Source of the DNA: Bacillaceae bacterium
Lineage (GTDB): Bacteria > Bacillota > Bacilli > JACDOE01
Direction: 5' to 3'
Assembly: GCA_017656255.1 (NCBI GenBank)
Contig: JACDOE010000034.1
Span: forward strand, 1-64,000
Length of the DNA stretch: 64,000 nucleotides
A program made the translations under genes and the position numbers. The notes beneath the pieces were generated by a model. That model had not been told where the DNA came from. It did no database searches and saw nothing but the letters and a program-made list of their open reading frames with translations. Position 1 is the stretch's first letter. The number at the start of each line of letters is the position of its first letter. Positions 40,550 through 43,137 of this stretch are shown one piece after another.

Positions 40550-40700
40550 TCCTGTCCCCTGCCCGTACCCGTAAAAATTCACTTGAATTTATAAAATAGT
40601 ATTGATATTCTAAATATTAGTAAACAAAAATTCCATTTTCTTTCTTTTTATACATAGTTCGACAAAAACCACATCATGCATCATGGGACGGAGGGCTCAT

Positions 40701-41483
40701 ATGGAATCCAATCAAGATTACATGGAAATTGATCTGAGAGATATCTTCCGTATCATTAAGAAACGCATCTGGATCATCCTCGTGGTTACCCTTCTCAGCT
40801 CCATTACAGCAGCCATCATCAGCTATTTCTACATCACACCCATCTATGAATCATCAACGCAACTGCTGGTCAACAAGTCGGAACGCAATCCCGAAAACAT
40901 CTACAATCTCAGTGACATCAATACAGACCTCAAACTGGTGGATACATACAGTGTGATCATCAAAAGTCCGCGCATCATGGAACTGGTCGTGCAGGATCTC
41001 GACCTTAACATGAACGCCGGTCAGCTAACGCAGAAAGTACGGGTCAGCCCCGTGAAAAACTCACAGGTCATTTCCATCACCGTCCAGGACCCGGACCCGC
41101 AAATGGCGGCGACCATTGCCAATGGTGTCGCACAGGTTTTTAAAAAGGAAATTGTCAACATCATGAACGTGGATAATGTCCAGATCCTTAATACGGCCAA
41201 CGTCGGGGAAAACCCGGCTCCCGTTAAACCCAAACCCGGATTGAATATCATGATTGCGTTTGTGGTCGGCATCATGTTAAGCCTGGGCATCATTTTTCTG
41301 CTGGAGTTTCTGGACAACACCCTCCATACAGAGCAGGATGTTGAATGCGTGTTGAATCTGCCGGTGCTGGGAAGCATCCCAAAAATTGAAGAAACCAAAA
41401 CCGCCCATGCCGGTTCCACCTATCCGAACACGCAGGTGTCGGCAGAACTGGCGGCAGGAAGTGATATCAATGAAAAGAAATAA
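40701..41483 (+). CDS. Wzz-type chain-length protein, CpsC/YveK class
   Basis: A 260-residue membrane protein of the Wzz family (PF02706). One helix lies near residues 20-45 (IWIILVVTLLSSITAAIISY) and another near 180-205, enclosing an extracellular domain. The NPAPVKPKPGLNIMIAF segment before the second helix is the Pro-rich family signature. In Gram-positives this protein is the activator of the separate tyrosine kinase CpsD, encoded next with a 14-base overlap. The pair controls polymer length. I chose ATG 40701 because GGAGGG lies 5 bases upstream. Confidence 0.92.
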   Translation: MESNQDYMEIDLRDIFRIIKKRIWIILVVTLLSSITAAIISYFYITPIYESSTQLLVNKSERNPENIYNLSDINTDLKLVDTYSVIIKSPRIMELVVQDLDLNMNAGQLTQKVRVSPVKNSQVISITVQDPDPQMAATIANGVAQVFKKEIVNIMNVDNVQILNTANVGENPAPVKPKPGLNIMIAFVVGIMLSLGIIFLLEFLDNTLHTEQDVECVLNLPVLGSIPKIEETKTAHAGSTYPNTQVSAELAAGSDINEKK

Positions 41484-42174
41484 GAGAAAAAAATCAGATC
41501 GCTTCAGAACACTGGTAGCCTTTCGCGATGAACGCTCAAACGCTTCCGAGGCCTATCGGACGTTACGTACCAACCTGCAGTTTGCCAGCGTCGACCGTGA
41601 AGTCAAGTCTATTCTGGTGACCAGCTCTGGACCGGCGGAAGGCAAGTCTACCACCATTACGAATCTGGCGGTCGTGCTGGCTCAGTCCGGAAAAAAGGTG
41701 CTACTGATCGATGCCGACATGAGAAAGCCGACGGTTCATCATTATTTTCGCGTCCCCAATCACCGGGGGTTAAGCAATATGCTGGCGGGCGTAAACACGC
41801 TTGAAGAGGTTATCACGAAAACAGGCGTGAACAACCTCCATGTGGTTACGTCAGGCCCCGTTCCGCCCAACCCCGCTGAAATACTGGCTTCCAAAAAGAT
41901 GTCCCAATTTGTGAAAAATGTCGTCAGTGACTATGACTATGTCTTGATTGACGCCCCTCCCGTGGTGGCTGTCACCGACGCACAGATACTGGCCGGTTAT
42001 GTCGACGGGGTGGTGCTTGTGATCCATGCCGGCAAAACCAATAAAGATATGGCAGTCAAAGCGAAGCACCTATTGGAAAATGTGCATGCACGAATCCTCG
42101 GGACGGTGCTGAATAATCGCAAACTGGATCACAACGGATACTACGAGTATTATCACTATGAACAGGAATCATAA
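41470..42174 (+). CDS. CpsD/YveL-type BY tyrosine kinase
   Basis: A 234-residue cytoplasmic bacterial tyrosine kinase. Walker A is SSGPAEGKSTT, Walker A' is VLLIDADMRKP and Walker B is YVLIDAPP. The C-terminal tail NGYYEYYHYEQES is the tyrosine cluster that is autophosphorylated. It needs the CpsC-type protein encoded just upstream for activity, and is dephosphorylated by CpsB-type phosphatases such as the one encoded next. ATG 41470 lies inside the end of the Wzz gene. A terminator follows, so the phosphatase gene is probably expressed separately. Confidence 0.94.
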   Translation: MKRNKRKKSDRFRTLVAFRDERSNASEAYRTLRTNLQFASVDREVKSILVTSSGPAEGKSTTITNLAVVLAQSGKKVLLIDADMRKPTVHHYFRVPNHRGLSNMLAGVNTLEEVITKTGVNNLHVVTSGPVPPNPAEILASKKMSQFVKNVVSDYDYVLIDAPPVVAVTDAQILAGYVDGVVLVIHAGKTNKDMAVKAKHLLENVHARILGTVLNNRKLDHNGYYEYYHYEQES

Positions 42175-42192
42175 AATAACACAACCATGACA

Positions 42193-42223
42193 TGAGATCT
42201 CTTAAAAAGAGGTCTCATTTTTT
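42193..42223 (+). terminator. Terminator after the BY-kinase gene
   Basis: TGAGATCTCTT pairs with AAGAGGTCTCA (one G-T pair) around three A, then TTTTTT. Confidence 0.88.
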
Positions 42224-42366
42224 GTCAAAAAAATCAGATAAATAAATAGGCTATTCAACAATATTTTACAATTTAAACATTTTACTCCTTGAAAGGGCCT
42301 GTGATAGCATATTTATTGTAACGATTGTCCCGGTACGATTGGCAGGGGGGAGCGAGGTGATTTGCG

Positions 42367-43137
42367 ATTATCGATATACACTGTCACATATTACCGCAGC
42401 TGGATGATGGGTCACAGGACATCGAACAGTCGGTTCGCATGGCGGAAGTGGCGGTTGAGGACGGAATTACCACCATCGTGGCCACACCCCATTATAATGA
42501 GTCCTATCGAACGGATCCGTCACGCATTAAAGAGAAAGTGATGGAAGTCAATCAGGCGATTGAAGAGAGAGGCATCCCACTGCGGCTGCTTCCGGGAATG
42601 GAAGCCCATTATCATTACGATCTGATCGATCAACTGCAGGATGGGCAGCTCTTGCCTCTCGGACTGAACAGTAAGTATGTCTTGCTGGAACTTCCTTTTC
42701 AACAGATTCCACATCATCTGAACAACCTGGTTTATCAGATTAAACTGGCCGGTTATACGCCGATTATCCCTCATCCGGAACGCTCAGTCTTTTTTCATAA
42801 ACATCCCGCCCAACTCTATGAACTGGTTAAAAACGGTGTCATCACACAGGTCAACGCAGGCAGTGTGACCGGTCTATTCGGTAAAAAAGTCAAAAAATTC
42901 ACGAAAAAGATGTTTGATTACGGATTGCTTCATTTGCTGGCATCCGATGCCCACGATGACAAGAAACGACCGCCTTGTCTGTCTGATGCCTATCGCACCA
43001 TTGCCCAGTTTGCCGGCCATTCTTTCGTCACCATGATGAAACGGAATGCGGAGTATGTGGCTTACGGCAGGGAGTTCTGGGTGGAGGAACCGGTGCGGCC
43101 GCAGAAAAGGAAGTTCTGGCTGCTGGGATACAGATAA
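42367..43137 (+). CDS. CpsB/YwqE-type PHP tyrosine phosphatase, apparent ATT start
   Basis: A 256-residue manganese-dependent phosphatase of the PHP class that dephosphorylates CpsD-type kinases. Metal motifs are IDIHCHILPQLDDGS at the N-terminus, IVATPHYNE, GMEAHYHYD, IPHPERS and LLASDAHDD. In frame, the only codons between the stop TGA (42358-42360) and the conserved D-I-H-C-H are TTT, GCG, ATT and ATC. No ATG, GTG or TTG is available. GAGGTGAT (42354-42361) is an excellent ribosome site 5 bases before ATT 42367, so translation seems to begin at ATT. The first in-frame ATG (42439) would remove the HxH metal ligands. A single-base loss of the ATG or a sequencing error is the alternative. Confidence 0.85.
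   Translation: MIDIHCHILPQLDDGSQDIEQSVRMAEVAVEDGITTIVATPHYNESYRTDPSRIKEKVMEVNQAIEERGIPLRLLPGMEAHYHYDLIDQLQDGQLLPLGLNSKYVLLELPFQQIPHHLNNLVYQIKLAGYTPIIPHPERSVFFHKHPAQLYELVKNGVITQVNAGSVTGLFGKKVKKFTKKMFDYGLLHLLASDAHDDKKRPPCLSDAYRTIAQFAGHSFVTMMKRNAEYVAYGREFWVEEPVRPQKRKFWLLGYR

Follow-up and report, generated by a model that had tools for sequence, protein, structure and literature searches.

The window, a stretch of 64,000 nucleotides from a Bacillaceae bacterium, contained a cpsB/ywqE-like gene that is most probably intact and translated from an AUU codon at position 42367. The sequence around the start read ...GAGGTGATTTGCG ATT ATC GAT ATA CAC TGT CAC... The features of this region and of its neighbourhood are listed in Table 1.

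The initial annotation had noted that an in-frame TGA left only TTT, GCG, ATT and ATC before the D-I-H-C-H motif, and this was borne out by both the bases and the translation; no ATG, GTG or TTG codon occurred in the cpsB frame between that TGA and the ATG at 42439. The ribosome site, which had been described as excellent and as lying five bases upstream of ATT, proved to be an 8-nt extended Shine-Dalgarno sequence (SD), which ended five bases 5' of the ATT, gave a spacing of 9 and included the TGA as part of itself. The accompanying proposal, that ATT had replaced ATG at the N-terminus typical of the family, gained support from homology, from the spacing of the SD and from the infC of this genome, which also begins with ATT. 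The position of the start was set by homology, because relatives start there, and this was independent of the SD.

Two other candidates were tried for this region and rejected. Readthrough of the TGA from a mini-ORF (TTG at 42325 to TGA at 42358) was discounted because no SD was evident for the mini-ORF and because the start of the family falls on the ATT codon. Sequestration of the SD was considered because a small hairpin paired it with the start; the energy of this hairpin was ordinary when compared with shuffled sequences.

Table 1. Features of the cps region, in coordinates of the window
Feature	Position	Strand	Remarks
cpsC/ywqC-like gene, Wzz-type kinase activator	40683..41483	+	TIGR01006 4.8e-61 (score below the model's own cut-off); PF02706 2.1e-20
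cpsD/ywqD-like gene, tyrosine autokinase	41470..42174	+	TIGR01007 8e-71
Terminator-like hairpin with T tail	42192..42226	+	Between cpsD and cpsB; 1 found, 0.2 expected
Extended SD GAGGTGAT	42354..42361	+	GAGG-to-ATT gap 9 nt; genome mode 7-9
In-frame TGA within the SD	42358..42360	+	Rules out any start 5' of the TGA
cpsB/ywqE-like gene, PHP-type protein-tyrosine phosphatase	42367..43137	+	256 codons from ATT, plus stop
Proposed ATT (AUU) start codon	42367..42369	+	Aligned to the ATG/GTG/TTG starts of relatives
First in-frame ATG (Met-Ala-Glu)	42439..42441	+	Without SD; a start there loses the metal-binding D-I-H-C-H

Identity, condition and neighbourhood of cpsB

By similarity, the product of cpsB is predicted to be a PHP-type tyrosine phosphatase of the CpsB/YwqE kind. 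It matched PF19567 (CpsB_CapC; 1e-62) over residues 1-228, covering positions 1-229 of a profile of 234, and it matched the YwqE structure 3qy6 (3.6e-57) in an alignment that placed Met1 of YwqE against the ATT codon; the solved structure of Cps4B was also matched. The gene looked intact, with no sign of decay. It matched 35 of the 37 columns conserved among 26 relatives, and these included all of the metal-binding and catalytic residues (D3, H5, H7, E79, E108, H136, R139, D194 and H196). Among 533 long ORFs its codon-usage score stood at the 56th percentile. In the tree of relatives its branch, though long, was not the longest and fell inside their range.

Both cpsC and cpsD lay directly upstream on the same strand, and the neighbouring cps frames were open; the likely start of cpsD was the ATG at 41470, within a longer ORF beginning at TTG (41386-42174). 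Since a terminator-like hairpin lies in the gap after cpsD, expression of cpsB may need a promoter of its own, or readthrough. The family and the metal site are common to this product, to YwqE (PtpZ) of B. subtilis and to Cps4B of S. pneumoniae. This locus differs from theirs in two respects: their aligned proteins open with Met at the position taken here by ATT, and in this genome the hairpin stands between the kinase and phosphatase genes.

Ribosome sites and ATT starts in the host genome

The frequency of such sites was judged from a sample of the host genome comprising 41 stretches (864 kb, of which 824 kb was readable); 40 of these were 20 kb in length, and two of the 20-kb stretches were essentially N (40,000 N in total). 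Within the 824 kb, an SD match of at least 8 nt stood in range of only 25 of 17,913 ATT triplets (0.14%). A match of this length preceded 44 of 458 long genes, which places the 8-nt SD of cpsB in the top 10%. The spacing between GGAGG and the start was modally 7-9 among host genes, and that of cpsB was 9. The 16S rRNA, from which the anti-SD would be read, was not found in the assembly.

The same sample was scanned for frames that lacked a canonical start upstream and had instead ATT, ATC, ATA or CTG with an SD, and 25 candidates were obtained. Among these, cpsB and infC alone combined an ATT start with an SD of at least 7 nt and no canonical start upstream. Another candidate was a 149-codon frame (L110:1130-1576) that had no canonical start close to the 5' end, and in which a CTG followed GAGGTGA at a spacing of 9; no Pfam match was found for it.

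The gene infC, which encodes IF3 and is known for its non-canonical start in E. coli, was found on the minus strand of L039 near 2006 (G000:C3) and also in L080, with the SD GGAGGTG and a location upstream of apparent rpmI and rplT genes. It read GGAGGTGGCAGGCG-ATT-AGC-AAA-GAA; the distance from GAGG to ATT was 9 nt, as in cpsB, and GCG preceded the ATT in both genes. It serves as an internal positive control, that is, as an apparently ATT-started gene of the host, where initiation at ATT is predicted on the basis of its sequence and by analogy with infC genes already known. The resemblance extends to the ATT, the GAGGTG-type SD and the 9-nt spacing, infC being known for AUU or AUA starts with a strong SD. 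However, the rare start of infC is a conserved autoregulatory device, whereas the ATT of cpsB occurred in this genome only among those surveyed, and cpsB has no known feedback loop.

The start codon among relatives of cpsB

The codon corresponding to the cpsB ATT was ATG, GTG or TTG in 23 of 26 relatives of the same class that carried the motif; two more relatives of the class had an ATG one codon upstream. When a pattern with ATH at the start was searched for in 399 genomes of the class, the window held the only CpsB without a canonical start among the 30 loci read, 18 further matches being seen only as short motifs. Three other copies of cpsB had ATA at the start position, one intact and two visibly decayed. 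The intact copy was ywqE/cpsB of Bacillus sp. FJAT-29937 (L031:3001-3756), where an ATA start followed the SD GGAGGGG and opened an intact frame of 252 aa; the sole canonical codon of that frame was a TTG five codons upstream, inside the SD. The ATA is a lineage-specific change, since the closest relatives (82%, 76% and 70%) carry GTG, GTG and ATG, respectively. In the genus of this strain, 27 of 28 homologues had ATG, GTG or TTG at the codon that is ATT in the window. The scan by which this case was found had been seeded with the I-I-D-I-H-C-H-I of the window and was thereby biased toward such cases.

A stricter, CpsB-specific pattern applied to 193 genomes of the family of this Bacillus strain recovered L031 itself and G517, in which the copy (L141:1501-1600) had an ATA start and ended after about 30 codons. 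The third copy came from a Tepidibacter MAG (L032:2998-3170) and combined an ATA start with an internal TAG; with the CpsB-specific pattern, it was the only one without a canonical start in 391 genomes of its class. A non-canonical start common to the whole family was rejected, because the other homologues examined, save the window and the three ATA copies, were canonical at or near this codon. Judged from these searches, non-canonical starts in the CpsB family are sporadic and sometimes accompany decay.

Alternative explanations and biological meaning

A recent loss of the start codon through a real ATG-to-ATT mutation, leaving a silenced or crippled gene on the way to becoming a pseudogene, would accord with the two decayed ATA copies, in which decay and a non-canonical start of this family are seen to go together, and with the fact that L031 was the only other intact case found. 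Yet 256 codons have stayed open with every metal ligand, average codon usage and a branch that is not the longest; the extended SD has been retained at modal spacing, the host appears to use ATT in infC, and the Bacillus homologue combines ATA with an intact gene. Such a loss was consequently thought unlikely. An error of sequencing or assembly was given still less credence. It would conceal either a true ATG or, through a one-base indel, an in-frame start at GTG 42357 or TTG 42362; the ATT is known from a single assembly of one genome and most relatives carry ATG at this codon. However, wrong substitutions in a draft of 36 contigs should, by our own estimate, occur far less often than genuine non-AUG starts, and the adjoining cps genes are open. 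An indel would serve poorly in any case, because the TTG is only 4 nt from GAGG, the GTG sits inside the SD without an SD of its own, and the resulting start would be a few codons away from that of the family.

Translation from the ATG at 42439 is extremely improbable, although this is the first canonical start in frame and the probable choice of an automatic annotator. It has no SD, and a start there would forgo 24 conserved codons, which encode the metal-site residues D3, H5 and H7 and the beginning of the Pfam match, at position 1 of the model; the 232-aa protein so produced should be inactive.

Under initiation at AUU, which remains the preferred reading, the extended SD GAGGUGAU would place ribosomes at 42367 with normal spacing, and initiator tRNA-fMet would read AUU as a near-cognate codon to give fMet-Ile-Asp-Ile-His-Cys-His. 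Published AUU and AUA starts suggest that the yield would be reduced and that the level of IF3 would influence it, the outcome being a low dose of the phosphatase that opposes the CpsD kinase. YwqE (PtpZ) and Cps4B are tyrosine phosphatases opposing the CpsD/YwqD kinase, and YwqE removes phosphate from its cognate kinase as well as from its substrates (PMC4304235). Because of this activity, a lower dose of a YwqE-type enzyme would favour the phosphorylated state.

The initial annotation had called ATT starts very rare, with infC as the known case; infC is indeed known, but it is not the sole example, the published cases including pcnB and cvfC1 with AUU, ccpN and citZ with AUA, and a proposed lepA. 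In S. aureus, an extended SD accompanies infC (AUA), cvfC1 (AUU) and ccpN (AUA); in poor medium, reporters for the cvfC1, ccpN and citZ (AUA) sites reached about 10% of the level obtained with AUG (PMC13009471). An AUU start has been proposed for lepA of B. licheniformis (PMC1780047), and the AUU of E. coli pcnB is cited as limiting the amount of enzyme (Binns and Masters 2002, via PMC13009471 and PMC1780047). The S. aureus genes resemble cpsB as non-canonical starts in a Firmicute, in cvfC1 and ccpN also with an extended SD; in contrast, ribosome profiling and reporters were used to map those sites, while cpsB is unrelated to them and known from sequence alone. The pcnB gene shares the AUU start proposed for cpsB and differs in gene, phylum and experimental status. 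The ATT of cpsB is thus a well-supported further example of a start type already known.

Annotators readily overlook starts outside the set ATG, GTG and TTG; in this case they would remove 24 residues from the enzyme, and with them part of its metal site. The finding would give this genome two ATT-started genes, infC and cpsB, to which Bacillus adds an intact homologue starting at ATA. Together these would offer a clean case, open to testing, in which the start codon sets dosage within a kinase/phosphatase pair. It is doubtful that the AUU is a selected control point, an infC-like site through which the level of CpsB follows the availability of IF3; if it were, the balance between kinase and phosphatase in polysaccharide export would be coupled to the condition of the translation apparatus.
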